Assembly: GCA_902532525.1 (NCBI GenBank)
Contig: CACAIK010000011.1
Span: 1-39,119 of the forward strand
Direction of reading: 5' to 3'
DNA length: 39,119 nucleotides
Source: an uncultured Pelagibacteraceae bacterium
Lineage (GTDB): Bacteria; Pseudomonadota; Alphaproteobacteria; Pelagibacterales; Pelagibacteraceae
The position numbers and the translations under genes are program-made. Every line of letters begins with the position of its first letter. The stretch's first letter is position 1. The notes below the pieces were generated by a model that was not told where the DNA came from, did not search any database, and saw nothing but the letters and a program-made list of their open reading frames with translations. Positions 18,358-39,100 of this stretch are shown piece by piece.

Positions 18358-18777
18358 ATGTTAGAATCTATTGAAGAAAAATGCCAAAAAAATGGCGTTA
18401 AGCTCACCGATCAAAGAAGGATAATAGCTAGAGTAATATCAGAGTCTAAAAAAACATACGGAGAATCTGACCACCCAGATGTTGATGAATTATATAATAG
18501 AGTTTCTCAAATTGATTCTAAAATTAGCATTGCTACAGTTTATAGAACAGTCAAACTTTTTGAAGAAGCGGGTATATTAACAAAACATGATTTTAAATCT
18601 GGAAAGGCAAGATATGAATTAAATGATGATCATAATCATTTAATTGATATAAAAACTGGAGAAATAATAGAATTTGTTGACGAAGAGATCGAGGAATTAC
18701 AAAAAAAAATTGCTGATAAATACGGTTATAAACTCGTTGATCATAAATTAGAACTATACGGAATTAAAAAAAAATAA
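18358..18777 (+). CDS. fur: Fur-family metal-responsive repressor (Fur/Mur)
   Basis: A 139-residue Fur protein. The N-terminal winged helix contains KLTDQRRIIARVI and the recognition helix SIATVYRTVKLFEEAG. The dimerisation/metal domain carries the DDHNHLID motif with His92 and His94, plus His39, acidic residues near 106-113 and His129, matching the usual regulatory metal sites. C-terminal CxxC zinc motifs are absent. In some Alphaproteobacteria the orthologue at this locus responds to manganese (Mur) rather than iron; the sequence alone does not decide. It lies between tsaB and miaB. Confidence 0.93.
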   Translation: MLESIEEKCQKNGVKLTDQRRIIARVISESKKTYGESDHPDVDELYNRVSQIDSKISIATVYRTVKLFEEAGILTKHDFKSGKARYELNDDHNHLIDIKTGEIIEFVDEEIEELQKKIADKYGYKLVDHKLELYGIKKK

Positions 18778-33670: not shown

Positions 33671-34882
33671 CTAAACTTTCTCAAACACTAGTGTTGCATT
33701 AGTTCCACCAAAACCAAAGCTGTTAGACATAATTGCATTTAAATTTACATCTTTTTCAACTTGTGTAACAATCGGATAGTTTTTTGCTTCATCATCCATT
33801 TCTGAAATATTTGCTGAAGCTGAAATAAAATTGTTCTTCATCATTATCAAACTATAAATTGCTTCGTGAACTGAAGTTGCACCTAATGAATGACCTGACA
33901 AAGATTTAGTAGAACTTATCTTAGGTTTATAGTCTGGGAAAGCCTCACCAACTGCTTTTAATTCTGTAATATCTCCTACAGGTGTTGATGTTCCGTGGGT
34001 ATTAATATAGTCAATTTTATTTTTTGAAGTTGCTAGAGCCATTTTCATACATCTCACTGCTCCCTCACCAGATGGTGCAACCATATCATAGCCATCTGAT
34101 GTTGCTCCATATCCAGTTAATTCTGAGTATATTTTAGCACCTCTTGCTTTGGCATGCTCGTATTCTTCTAAAACAAGAACTCCACCTCCACCAGCAATTA
34201 CAAAACCATCTCTTGTTTTATCATATGGTCTAGAAGCTTTTTCAGGGGTATCATTATATTTTGAGGATAGTGCAGTCATTGCATCAAACATTGCTGTCAT
34301 TGCAAAGTGAACCTCATCACTTCCACCTGCAAAAATAATATTTTGTTTTCCTAATTGAATAAGTTCCATCGCATTACCAATACAATGACCACTCGTTGCG
34401 CATGCAGAACTTATTGTGTAATTAGTGCCTTTTATTTTAAATGGAACTGCTAGAGTGGCAGAAGCAGTACTTGCCATAGTTCTTGGAACTATAAATGGAC
34501 CCATTTTTTTTGGATTTTTTTCTCTAGTTTTATCTGATGCTAAAATCACATTTTCAATTGATGGTCCTCCAGACCCCATGACCATACCTGTTGAAGTATT
34601 ACTAACCTCATTTTCTTCTAATCCAGAGTCTTTAACTGCTTCACTCATTGCAACATAATTATATGCTGAGCCAGCACCCATAAACCTAATAACTTTTCTA
34701 TCAATATAATCTTCTAATTTGATATTAGGTTTACCATGAACATGGCTTTTTAAATTATGCTCTTTGTATTCCTCAGAAAATGTTATTCCTGATTTTGTAT
34801 TAACTAATGATTGATAAACCTCATCTTGATTATTTCCTAAACATGAAACTACACCAAGTCCTGTTACAACTACTCTTTTCAT
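33671..34882 (-). CDS. fabB: 3-oxoacyl-ACP synthase I (KAS I)
   Basis: A 403-residue condensing enzyme that elongates cis-3-decenoyl-ACP made by FabA and so commits carbon to unsaturated fatty acids. The active-site Cys161 is in [12 protein letters not shown]. The two catalytic His lie in [12 protein letters not shown] and [13 protein letters not shown], and the C-terminal [13 protein letters not shown] is the family end. The fabA neighbour supports FabB over FabF. Its ATG overlaps the fabA stop (TAATG). Confidence 0.96.
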
Positions 34883-35382
34883 TATTTAAATAATCCTACC
34901 TTAAGATTTTCTGCACTATAAATCTTTTTTCCATCAGCAAGCAATATTCCATTCGCAAGACCTACAGTTGTTTCTCCTTTAACAAGAATTCTTTTCATAT
35001 CAATTTCGTATGTTGCCATTTTGACATTTTTAAGAACTTCCCCAGTGAATTTTACAGTGCTAACACCTAATGCTCTACCTCTTCCTGGATTTCCAAGCCA
35101 ACCAAGAAAAAAGCCAACTAGCTGCCACATAGCATCTAAACCAAGACAACCTGGCATAACCGGATCTTCTTTAAAATGACAATCAAAGAACCACAAATTA
35201 TCCTTAATATCAAGTTCGGCTTTCATAGAACCTTTTTTATAAAAACCCTCACTCTCAGTTATTTCTGTAATTCTATCAAACATTAGCATTGGTGGATAAG
35301 GTAATTTTGCATTGCCTGGACCAAATAACTTACCATTAGCGCAATCAATTAATTCGTCGTAATTAAAGGAACTTTTTTTCAT
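34882..35382 (-). CDS. fabA: 3-hydroxydecanoyl-ACP dehydratase/isomerase
   Basis: A 166-residue hot-dog-fold enzyme that dehydrates 3-hydroxydecanoyl-ACP and isomerises the trans-2 double bond to cis-3. [25 protein letters not shown] holds the catalytic His69 and Asp83, equivalent to E. coli His70 and Asp84. Length is typical. It is the first gene of fabA-fabB-fabI and is divergent from irr with a 73-base spacer. That spacer contains an Irr-type box, so Irr binding could also influence this operon. Confidence 0.97.
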
Positions 35383-35432: not shown

Positions 35433-35449
35433 TTTAGAATAGTTTTAAA
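35433..35449 (+). promoter_or_regulatory. Irr box (ICE-type operator) at the irr start
   Basis: TTTAGAATAGTTTTAAA fits the Irr/ICE consensus TTTAGAA-N3-TTCTAAA with one mismatch in the right half. It ends seven bases before the irr ATG and lies just downstream of a TATAAT. It suggests autoregulation of irr, and possibly an effect on divergent fabA. It is almost identical to the box at 35912. Confidence 0.7.
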
Positions 35450-35455
35450 TTGCTA

Positions 35456-35866
35456 ATGACTAGTAAACAAGAATTTATTGAAAAACTAAGAAACTCTAAC
35501 TTAAGACCAACTAAACAAAGAATAAATATATGCGAGGTTTTATTTAATAGAGATAAAACTTTCCATTTCACAATAAGCGACTTATTCAATTTAGTTAAAG
35601 ATAAAACTGGAGAAAAAGTTTCTTTGGCAACTGTTTATAATACAGTCCATGCTTTCCACAAAAAAGGTTATCTAAAAGAGATACCTATTAATTCTAATCA
35701 AACTTACTTTGATACAAATGTCACAGATCATCACCATTTCTTTGATGTTAAAGAAGAAAAGCTTATTGATCTTAAAAATGAGGATGTGGGACCTATAGAA
35801 ATTCAAAAATCTATACCTGGAAAAAAAATTAAATCAGTTGAAGTTTTAGTAAAATTAGAAGACTAG
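35456..35866 (+). CDS. irr: Iron response regulator Irr (Fur superfamily)
   Basis: A 136-residue Fur-superfamily protein. The winged helix has LRPTKQRINICEVL and the recognition helix SLATVYNTVHAFHKKG. The diagnostic Irr triple-His motif DHHHFFDV (His92-94) binds heme in this family. Irr controls iron use, heme and Fe-S genes according to heme status and is degraded or inactivated by heme or peroxide. The N-terminal heme regulatory motif of Bradyrhizobium Irr is absent. I chose ATG 35456; a TTG two codons upstream would overlap the operator. The fabA-irr divergence is conserved in many Alphaproteobacteria. Confidence 0.92.
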   Translation: MTSKQEFIEKLRNSNLRPTKQRINICEVLFNRDKTFHFTISDLFNLVKDKTGEKVSLATVYNTVHAFHKKGYLKEIPINSNQTYFDTNVTDHHHFFDVKEEKLIDLKNEDVGPIEIQKSIPGKKIKSVEVLVKLED

Positions 35867-35899
35867 CTTTCAAAATTAAATCGTAAATATTCTGACTTA

Positions 35900-35928
35900 T
35901 TGACAATCTTCTTTAGAATAATTATAAA
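35900..35928 (+). promoter_or_regulatory. Near-consensus sigma-70 promoter of katG
   Basis: TTGACA (35900-35905), a 17-base spacer and TATAAA (35923-35928) form an almost perfect housekeeping promoter, about 35 bases before the katG ATG. Transcription should begin near 35935. The -10 element is entirely inside the Irr-type box at 35912-35928, so a bound regulator would block it. Confidence 0.8.
35912..35928 (+). promoter_or_regulatory. Irr box (ICE-type operator) over the katG -10 element
   Basis: TTTAGAATAATTATAAA matches TTTAGAA-N3-TTCTAAA with one mismatch. It differs from the box before irr by two bases out of 17. Overlap with the -10 element implies repression by Irr. Confidence 0.7.
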
Positions 35929-35962
35929 CAACGAATTATAATATTAAAGGAGATAAATAATA

Positions 35963-38200
35963 ATGAGTGCGGAATTTCATAAGAGTAAAACATTTAAATC
36001 AACAGAATTAAGCAAGTGCCCGTTTACAGGTGCAGGCACACCAGCAAAATTTAGCGCTGGAAGAGGACAAACAAATAGAGATTTTTGGCCAAATAGTTTG
36101 AATTTGAAAATTTTAAGTCAGCACTCGAATTTATCAAATCCAATGGAGAAAAAATTTAATTATTCTAAAGAATTTAAAAAACTAAATTACAAAGCACTCA
36201 AAAAAGATTTAAACAAATTAATGACAGACTCACAAGATTGGTGGCCAGCAGATTACGGTCATTATGGTCCTTTATTTATTAGATTAGCATGGCACGCAGC
36301 AGGTACATACAGAACAGGTGATGGTAGAGGGGGAGCTGGAACAGGTAATCAAAGGTTTGCACCGTTAAATGCTTGGCCTGATAATGTTAATTTAGATAAA
36401 GCTAGATTACTTTTGTGGCCAATAAAACAGAAATATGGAAAAAGAATTTCTTGGGCAGATTTATTTATACTAGTTGGTAATGTAGCATTAGAGTCAATGG
36501 GCTTTAAAACGTTTGGTTTTGGAGCGGGAAGAACTGATATCTGGGAACCAGAAGATGATATTTACTGGGGTTCAGAAAAAGAAATGTTAGGTGTTAAGAG
36601 ATACAGCGGAAAAAGAGATCTTGAACAACCATTGGGGGCTTCTCACATGGGATTAATTTATGTAAATCCACAAGGTCCAGATTTTAATCCAGACCCATTA
36701 AAAGCAGCTCATGATATTAGAGAAACATTTGGACGAATGGCAATGAATGATTATGAAACAGTTGCACTAGTTGCTGGTGGTCACACTTTTGGAAAATCTC
36801 ATGGTGCTGCACCTGAATCACATAAAGGACCTGATCCAGAAGCATCAAGAATTCAAGATCAAGCAACTGGTTGGAATAGTAATTATAAATCAGGAAAAGG
36901 TGTACACGCAATAAGTAGTGGTATTGAAGGGGCATGGACACAAACACCAACACAATGGGATATGGGTTACTTTGATTGTTTATTTAACCATGAATGGGAA
37001 TTGACAAAAGGACCTGCTGGAGCATTTCAATGGACTCCAAAAAAGAATGGTCAGAGAATTAAAATGGTTCCTGATGCTCATGATAAAAGTAAAATGCATC
37101 CTCCAATGATGCAAACAACTGATTTATCTTTGAGAATGGATAAAAGTTACGGACCAATTTCAAAACATTTTTATCAAAATCCAGATGAATTTGCTGATGC
37201 ATTTGCAAGAGCTTGGTTTAAGCTTACTCATAGGGACATGGGACCAAGAGCATGTTATTTAGGTAGCGAAGTACCAAAAGAACAATTAATTTGGCAAGAT
37301 CCTATAGATAAACCAAAATATAAACTTAAATCAAAAGATATAAGAGATTTAAAATCAAAGCTTTCAAAATCAAAAATCTCTGTTTCTGATTTAGTTTCCA
37401 CTGCTTGGGCTTCTGCTTCCACTTACAGAGGTTCTGACAAAAGAGGTGGAGCAAACGGAGCAAGAATTATGCTTGAGCCTCAAAGAAGTTGGAAAGTCAA
37501 TAACCCTAAAAAACTTTCAAAGGTTATTAAAGCTTTACAAAAAATTAAGAAAAAATTTGATACAAATAAAAAATCAGTCTCAATGGCGGATCTTATAGTA
37601 TTAGGTGGAAATGTAGGAATAGAAATGGCAGCAAAAAAAGCTGGTCATAAAATTCAGGTTCCATTTACTCCAGGAAGAGGAGATGCAAGACAAGACCAAA
37701 CAGATGTAAATTCATTTGGATTACTTGAGCCGCAAGCGGATGGTTTTAGAAACTACATGAAAAAAGGTAAATCTAATGTTTCAGCTGAGGAAAAATTAAT
37801 TGATAAGGCACAATTAATGGGATTAACGGCACCAGAGATGACAGTTCTTGTAGGAGGAATGAGAGTTTTAGATACAAACTATGATAGTTCTAAAAATGGA
37901 GTTTTCACAAAAAAACCTGGAGCTCTATCAACAGATTATTTTGTAAATCTTCTTGATATGAGTACCACTTGGAAAGAAACTGACAAATCTGAACAATATT
38001 TTGTTGGTAAAGATAGAAAGTCTAAAAAAACTAAGTGGAAAGGTTCAAGAGTTGACCTTATTTTTGGTTCAAATTCTCAATTAAGAGCATTATCTGAAGT
38101 CTATGCCTGCAAAGACTCATCTGACAAATTTGTTAAAGACTTTGTATCTGCATGGGTCAAAGTGATGAATGCAGATAGATTTGATTTAAGATTAAACTAG
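35963..38200 (+). CDS. katG: Catalase-peroxidase KatG
   Basis: A 745-residue bifunctional heme enzyme that removes hydrogen peroxide. The distal site is [12 protein letters not shown] with Arg107, Trp110 and His111. Tyr233 ([11 protein letters not shown]) and Met259 (GRMAMNDYE) complete the Met-Tyr-Trp adduct needed for catalase activity. Proximal His274 is in [11 protein letters not shown]. The C-terminal half is the usual degenerate duplicate. Length is normal and all key residues are present, so it should be active. AAAGGAGAT is a strong ribosome-binding site. It lies 96 bases after irr with its own promoter under an Irr box. katG is uncommon in SAR11, so it may be accessory. Confidence 0.98.
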
Positions 38201-38219: not shown

Positions 38220-38816
38220 ATGACATCACTATCGTTCGAAGACTTTTATAAAGTTCCTGAAATTAAGTTTGATATAAATAGATTGCGAAATGACTTAAAT
38301 CTAATTTTAGAGAAAAAGAAATTTAATTCGCCAGGTGTTACTCACTTTGGTGCAATTCCTCTAAATCAAATTCCAAATAACAAAGACTCTATAGAAGGGA
38401 ACAATATCAGAGGTAGATATTGGACTATTGCAGATGAGACAGGCAAAGAAGTCTCAAGAGACATTGATATTGATGAATCCAAATATACTCAGTTGCTACC
38501 AGAGTTCGAGAAAACTTATTTTAAAGAGGTTTATGAAATTCTTAGTAAAAAATTTAAACTAGGAAGAGTAAGGCTTTTATTAAAAGAGCCAAGATCAACG
38601 CTAAGCTGGCACAAAGATCCAGAGTGTAGATTGCATATTCCGATAGTAACCAATGCAGGTTGTTCAATGGTCATTGAAAATGTTGCAAAACATTTGCCTG
38701 CTGATGGACATGTATGGATTACTAATAACACAAAGTATCATAACTTTTTTAATGGAGGAGAACAGGCTAGAGTTCACTTAGTTGCTTGTGTTCTTGAAAG
38801 CCCGTTTAAAGAATAA
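38220..38816 (+). CDS. Aspartyl/asparaginyl beta-hydroxylase-like 2OG-Fe(II) oxygenase
   Basis: A 198-residue protein with a double-stranded beta-helix core. SWHKDPECRLHIPIVTNAGC contains the His131-x-Asp133 pair, KYHNFFNGG the distal His174, and QARVHLVACV the 2-oxoglutarate-binding Arg184. This is the full facial triad plus Arg of the PF05118-type hydroxylases. The substrate is unknown; peptide or small-molecule hydroxylation are both possible. It starts 19 bases after the katG stop with GGAAAGCGG upstream, and its stop overlaps the next gene, so katG, this gene and the DUF2061 gene probably form one operon. Confidence 0.8.
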   Translation: MTSLSFEDFYKVPEIKFDINRLRNDLNLILEKKKFNSPGVTHFGAIPLNQIPNNKDSIEGNNIRGRYWTIADETGKEVSRDIDIDESKYTQLLPEFEKTYFKEVYEILSKKFKLGRVRLLLKEPRSTLSWHKDPECRLHIPIVTNAGCSMVIENVAKHLPADGHVWITNNTKYHNFFNGGEQARVHLVACVLESPFKE

Positions 38817-39100
38817 TGGAAGTTACCAACGGTATTTTTAAAGCTGCCGGTCAGATTTATTCCAATAACAGAGGCTCTATTTTAAGAACAATTGTTTATA
38901 CAGTTGGTCATTTTGCAATTGCTATAACTGTTTTGATGTTAGTTGCTGATGTATCTTTTATGATAGCTTTGACCGATGCGATTGTAGAACCAATCGCCAA
39001 TTCTATTTGGTATTTCATTTTAGATAAGTGGTGCTTAGTAGAAACTAAAAGTTTTAAAGGGTGGGTTGATGAAGAAAATCTTTGGGGAAAAATCAACTAA
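38816..39100 (+). CDS. DUF2061 membrane protein
   Basis: A 94-residue protein with two hydrophobic segments: IVYTVGHFAIAITVLMLVADVSF and an IALTDAIVEPIANSIWYFILDKW stretch. The pattern, a Arg-rich start followed by T-Y-V/H-F helix and an ...KxxxYxxHE/DKxW-type end, resembles DUF2061, small membrane proteins of unknown role. Start is coupled to the upstream hydroxylase by TAATG. The remaining 19 bases of the window contain no further gene. Confidence 0.65.
   Translation: MEVTNGIFKAAGQIYSNNRGSILRTIVYTVGHFAIAITVLMLVADVSFMIALTDAIVEPIANSIWYFILDKWCLVETKSFKGWVDEENLWGKIN

Follow-up and report, generated by a model that had tools for sequence, protein, structure and literature searches.

The irr–katG locus of an uncultured Pelagibacteraceae bacterium is probably a self-contained peroxide-defence slot that is controlled by Irr and whose enzyme is exchangeable. 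We analysed it within a contiguous stretch of 39,119 nucleotides (hereafter the window), which belongs to a draft genome (1,183,021 bases, 38 contigs, 86% complete). SAR11 bacteria are among the most abundant cell groups of the ocean, and their peroxide defence bears on who detoxifies sea-water H2O2. The locus presents a candidate one-locus, one-regulator switch for which strains that carry katG or rubrerythrin (rbr), that have lost irr or that have katG at another locus serve as natural controls, so that whether SAR11 regulates catalase, and by what, is now a testable question.

Two boxes, a promoter and an Irr-lineage regulator in the window

Direct reading of the sequence placed two 17-bp boxes on the + strand, TTTAGAATAGTTTTAAA at 35433–35449 and TTTAGAATAATTATAAA at 35912–35928, where the first-pass annotation had described them. 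Positions 10 and 13 distinguish the two boxes, each of which departs from the ICE-like pattern TTTAGAANNNTTCTAAA by one mismatch at position 13, which carries T or A for C. Box 1 ends 6 bp 5' of the ATG (35456) of irr, a Fur-superfamily regulator gene (35456–35866, + strand) with an alternative in-frame TTG at 35450. In many members of the genus the box likewise ends 5–6 bp 5' of the irr ATG (35433–35456 in the window), and because this gap leaves no space for a ribosome-binding site, the irr mRNA may be leaderless.

Box 2 lies before katG (35963–38200, + strand), which encodes a bifunctional catalase-peroxidase of 745 aa scoring above the curated cut-offs of NF011635 (1225 bits, cut-off 981) and TIGR00198 (1141 bits, cut-off 770). 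The predicted katG promoter (35900–35928, + strand) consists of TTGACA at 35900–35905, a 17-bp spacer and TATAAA at 35923–35928, and its −10 is covered by box 2, in agreement with the earlier statement that a promoter is buried under this site. The pattern TTGACA-N15-19-TATAAW matched the window once (expected 0.24; at least one match in 23 of 100 shuffles); the claim of a genome with few strong promoters was checked with this pattern, within the window. A sigma-70 scan that required T at the last −10 position did not list TTGACA-17-TATAAA, and between 35300 and 36050 the sigma-70 and terminator scan returned no promoter excess and no terminator. A probable katG ribosome-binding site, AAAGGAG, was read at 35946–35952 (+ strand).

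On the left, irr is flanked by the divergent fabA (34882–35382, − strand), which forms the conserved edge of the slot, and by fabB (33671–34882, − strand), both assigned by profile match and long-locus comparison. Downstream of katG, profile matches identified an Asp/Arg beta-hydroxylase-like ORF (PF05118; 38220–38816, + strand), a companion of katG in many slots, and a small DUF2061-like membrane protein (38816–39100, + strand) that scores under the Pfam cut-off. The window also encodes a Fur-like paralog at about 18370–18720.

The regulator is filed with the Irr lineage on the basis of its best model, its HXH motif, the box and the irr–rbr gene order rather than by cut-off. IrrA (128.6 bits, cut-off 150) and Irr (119.4 bits, cut-off 170) scored highest, with PerRB (60.5) and Fur (34.9) far behind, and both of these top scores fall under the curated NCBIfam cut-off, as do those of several other Alphaproteobacteria. 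The HXH motif (H94 and H96 counted from the TTG) was present in 113/113 SAR11 rows and in 30/30 rows from the class, and an ICE/Irr box was found, at the level of sequence, at the target promoters and at irr.

The regulatory ligand set of PerR is H37, D85, H91, H93 and D104, and its Asp residues favour peroxide sensing. Aligned to Bacillus subtilis PerR (2fe3), the window Irr shares all five ligands, and the corresponding columns are invariant in 113/113 SAR11 and 30/30 class Irr proteins; the Fur paralog of the window has Glu at both Asp positions. Because Irr keeps these PerR-type H-D-H-H-D ligands, direct peroxide sensing is possible, which raises the question of whether peroxide sensing through such ligands is a general property of Irr. 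Irr differs from PerR, which has a structural CxxC zinc site and a different operator: the window Irr lacks CxxC, with one cysteine in the translated protein, and the known effector of Irr is haem. That cysteine, C28, is followed by E, and its column is C in 67 of the 113 rows. Irr of the Bradyrhizobium japonicum type carries an N-terminal CP haem-regulatory motif linked to degradation; the CP motif is absent at the only cysteine of the window Irr, and haem-triggered degradation of that type is hence not expected and was rejected. A search for OxyR in five genomes gave no match over the cut-off, with one weak match in four of them and none in the draft genome of the window.

Conservation of the boxes and their loss with irr

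Because an AT-rich genome yields many weak matches to such a box, we tested position and conservation. In the window, 11 matches with up to three mismatches were found (shuffle mean 10.6), and at zero mismatches only the two boxes were recovered, with a pattern that had been built from them. The degenerate pattern TTTAGAAYNRTTHTAAW matched the whole draft genome twice, at the two boxes (reversed control, three), and its matches in three relatives (G069, G035 and G051) were confined to the slot. A looser pattern with one mismatch gave 61 matches in the draft genome against 116 for the reversed control, that is, no enrichment. Single-genome counts are therefore weak proof, and position and conservation carry the evidence.

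Our family sample comprised 197 genomes, 131 with a strong irr match. In the 113 of these used for the tree and the residue counts, the gene next to irr is katG (82) or rbr (31); the other 18 entered the box count only, 17 with katG next and one (G096) on a contig that stops short of the next gene. A box with at most two mismatches to TTTAGAANNNTTCTAAA precedes katG in all 99 irr–katG genomes (82/82 and 17/17) and rbr in 30 of the 31 irr–rbr genomes, the best box of the remaining locus (L117) having three mismatches. Dinucleotide shuffles led us to expect 0.85 of 82 and 0.25 of 31, respectively. The first-pass annotation had staked its proposal on retention of the boxes in katG-bearing relatives, and there they are kept. 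Before irr itself, a box with at most two mismatches was found in 61 of the 99 irr–katG and 29 of the 31 irr–rbr genomes; because it is missing in 38 of the former, irr autoregulation, which the annotation had also put forward, is predicted to be common and not universal. Autoregulation of irr is reportedly known in Brucella, going by the title of a cited reference.

Loss of irr provided a natural experiment. Among 35 genomes with katG and no strong irr match, 27 were examined; eight were excluded, with the katG start absent from the contig or fragments (G128 ends inside katG). Nine have lost irr and still carry katG in the slot beside fabA, and a box with at most two mismatches was found in two of these (L035 with one, L152 with two). 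Two further slots (L031 and L153) have a site with three mismatches, and L148–L151 have nothing at up to three. In L154 (G130 C7), an apparent irr remnant with an early stop lies between fabA and katG, which has no box at up to three mismatches; this arrangement reads as irr loss in progress. Where katG lies elsewhere and a strong irr match is lacking, the box precedes katG in 0 of 18 genomes. The comparison of 82/82 with 2/20 (20 of the 27) gave a Fisher p of 4e-18, a value that ignores relatedness.

Six of the nine slot genomes that lack irr retain a Fur-like match, and so the box tracks irr rather than Fur. That the two boxes are Irr operators is a prediction well supported by their conservation before katG and by the disappearance of a good box from seven of the nine slots in which irr was lost; in this the earlier identification stands.

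A fixed slot with alternative enzymes

The slot has a constant chromosomal position, with fabAB on one side and the dnaA region on the other, and irr–katG is one of its states. In the family sample, katG was found in 134 of 197 genomes, rbr in 31 and both in none, the overlap being judged by eye between two match lists; in the best 77 genomes, 52 have katG, 21 rbr, none both and four neither. The gene next to irr in loci without katG is rubrerythrin (Pfam PF02915; 31 loci so classed); in six of six long rbr loci, genes for a GlpC-like Fe-S protein and a further conserved protein come next. The clusters of the PF05118 ORF and the DUF2061-like ORF (38220–39100 in the window) each occur in eight of 19 long loci, all of them katG loci, and are absent from the six long rbr loci. 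The flanks are kept: the right flank in 18 and fabA–fabB in 16 of the 19 long loci, two of which are cut at a contig edge, while katG of G009 is located elsewhere. As far as each locus extends, the right flank comprises an SH3-type protein, a ThiF-like protein, mostly dut, and then dfp, ubiB, ubiE, mutM, rpsT, dnaA and dnaN, where names for unlabelled clusters are our reading of the sequences. The self-contained irr–katG switch of the first-pass annotation was therefore framed too narrowly, since katG and rubrerythrin alternate; the unit that is conserved pairs irr with a peroxide scavenger.

The katG/rbr label changes at least seven times on the Irr tree (113 rows, only 138 columns), the label tested being that of a gene adjoining irr and hence linked to the tree gene. 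A tree of 42 KatG rows split the slot enzymes into two deep clades, A and B, and clade B also occurs at other loci, there without the box. This deeply separate lineage B (L202, L208 and L275–L286) is in the slot in some genera and elsewhere in others. When slot katG genes were split by identity, the box was kept by 34/34 of type A and 48/48 of type B; the 17 KatG sequences added later show 55–61% identity, as do those of type B. Operator promoters are much alike in related katG and rbr loci, as in the dual-operator loci L073 (katG) and L057 (rbr). The simplest account is that the enzyme gene has been exchanged while irr and the operator promoter stayed in place.

We extended the comparison to 240 genomes of Alphaproteobacteria. 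Adjacency was assessed among the matches listed for 149 irr, 121 rbr and 56 katG places, a set without the rbr rows of low score and without some of the katG rows; when the omitted katG rows were compared by eye with the irr rows, none was adjacent. Of the 109 genomes in this set that have irr as well as rbr, 103 carry rbr at most 700 bp downstream of irr. Outside SAR11, again among the matches listed, irr is followed by katG only in G304 (L287) and G407 (L288), with an ICE-like site between the genes at one and two mismatches, respectively, and katG is upstream of irr in G323 (L289) and G342 (L290). An ICE-like site with two mismatches precedes katG in L289; L290 has none. The arrangements katG–irr–rbr in a row (L289), katG–irr (L290) and irr–katG (L287 and L288) occur outside SAR11, and irr meets katG in other families. 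ICE-like sites lie between irr and rbr in part of the 30 class loci, two of them without mismatch. The alphaproteobacterial irr–rbr pair has the same gene order as the SAR11 rbr slots, from which SAR11 departs by repeatedly having katG in the place of rbr. Because irr–rbr is found in 103/109 listed genomes and irr–katG is rare outside SAR11, the irr–rbr order probably came first and katG took the place of rbr later.

Mycobacterial FurA belongs to another branch of the superfamily and has another operator than Irr, and we know of no exchange of furA–katG with rubrerythrin. The furA–katG pair resembles the SAR11 locus in that a Fur-superfamily gene lies directly upstream of katG (PMC2358910). 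The gene order is alike, but the best models of the SAR11 regulator are Irr, and we treat the likeness as an analogy only.

Candidate mechanism and alternative readings

Earlier work has already established Irr boxes, the control of irr by its own product and Irr-dependent regulation of rubrerythrin-like genes. In SAR11, the literature covered by our search reports no Irr–katG operator, no katG/rbr exchange and no box loss with irr loss; Rodionov et al. 2006, which is said to describe computational Irr networks in Alphaproteobacteria, lies outside that coverage. The presence of katG in SAR11 and of rubrerythrin in four of 28 SAR11 members has been reported (PMC11366302), and a catalase gene is stated for strain HTCC7211 (PMC6775983). 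Haem-free Irr binds ICE boxes, and in the member studied haem at HXH abolishes binding; the position of the box decides between repression and activation, direct activation being common (PMC7762939). Under iron limitation, rubrerythrin mRNA of Candidatus Pelagibacter ubique rose 1.57-fold; the amount of Irr protein showed no significant change, and fur and irr grouped with genes of stationary phase (PMC2864753).

The Irr/ICE systems of Rhizobiales and Rhodobacterales (irr, mbfA, ccpA, bfr) share with SAR11 the regulator lineage, by best model, and the box, and their known targets include the rubrerythrin-like MbfA and cytochrome c peroxidase (PMC3413700, PMC7762939). Rhizobial Irr governs most iron-dependent genes (PMC3413700), whereas in SAR11 the conserved sites are at irr and the adjoining scavenger. 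In Rhodobacter sphaeroides, mbfA is bound by Irr, is raised in an irr mutant and goes up about 1.5-fold under iron limitation; katE goes up about six-fold in the mutant and is described as unbound and without an Irr box (PMC3413700), unlike SAR11 katG, before which the box is a candidate direct site.

In the slot reading that we consider probable, haem-free Irr would bind TTTAGAAYNATTATAAA boxes that lie in the promoter of the adjoining scavenger and often also just before irr itself. Repression of katG is predicted because the box overlaps the −10 of TTGACA-17-TATAAA, so that bound Irr would block RNA polymerase. Abundant haem, or peroxide that damages or displaces Irr, would then release katG; in the first-pass annotation irr would be released along with it. 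KatG A, KatG B or rubrerythrin would interchange behind an operator promoter that, like irr and the flanks, is retained, so that regulator and operator would persist beyond the enzyme under their control. Irr binding, the sign of regulation and the trigger are inferred from sequence. Counting against the slot reading are the rise of rbr in iron-limited P. ubique (the directly bound mbfA of R. sphaeroides also goes up), the box upstream of the −35 in most rbr promoters, the irr box missing from 38/99 irr–katG genomes, the box present in 2/9 irr-less slots and the Irr model scores under cut-off. More tentatively, the SAR11 Irr may have shrunk from a global iron regulator to the private peroxide sensor of one slot, sensing H2O2 directly through its PerR-like H-D-H-H-D site with haem as a second input, while behind a retained operator promoter KatG A, KatG B and the diiron rubrerythrin would have been swapped by recombination within fixed flanks.

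The sign of regulation may differ between the two enzymes. By a simple rule, the box lies upstream of the −35 in 26 of 31 rbr loci and in 15 of 82 katG loci, and Irr may therefore activate rbr; a box at the −10 would repress katG, and one upstream of the −35 would let Irr activate rbr in iron or haem shortage. This agrees with the dependence of Irr action on box position (PMC7762939) and with the rise of rbr in iron-limited P. ubique, which is opposite to simple repression by haem-free Irr. However, the fold change is small, a box is found 3' of the −35 in 16 of the 31 rbr loci, 11 of which have the upstream box as well, and the rule leaves 25 of the 82 katG loci unclassified. We regard such a double role as rather doubtful. 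Somewhat less credible still, and in our view unlikely, is an iron-sparing switch by which a shortage of haem or iron would make Irr repress KatG, a haem enzyme, with no direct part for peroxide. KatG does require haem, and Irr is the haem and iron-status sensor of Alphaproteobacteria (PMC7762939), but the haem-free diiron rubrerythrin stands under the same boxes, what the two alternatives have in common is the scavenging of peroxide and not a general use of iron, and rbr went up, not down, in iron limitation. Nor was a wider iron regulon visible outside the slot with TTTAGAAYNRTTHTAAW, a pattern that could miss weaker sites: over 24 genomes it gave 48 exact matches, 30 within the slot and 18 elsewhere, against 23 for the reversed control.

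The boxes might also be read by the Fur-like paralog, which is encoded in the same window, or be mere promoter elements, given that their right half doubles as TATAAA. Both versions were rejected, and we hold them to be very improbable. The left half, TTTAGAA, is conserved though it is no −10 or −35 element, which speaks against a pure promoter element; Fur fails as the reader because a good box is gone from 7/9 irr-less slots, yet 6/9 of these genomes have the Fur-like match, and katG genes elsewhere (0/18) have no upstream box.

Eight of the 11 off-slot TTTAGAAYNRTTHTAAW sites that we inspected overlap an ORF. At L231 (G026 C1:76167 and 76296), two identical box-like sites lie in an AT-rich stretch beside a low-complexity ORF. 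At L227 (G113 C1:443720), the perfect palindrome TTTAGAATAATTCTAAA lies off-slot, 35 bp before an ORF of 264 aa, and is possibly an extra Irr target in that lineage.
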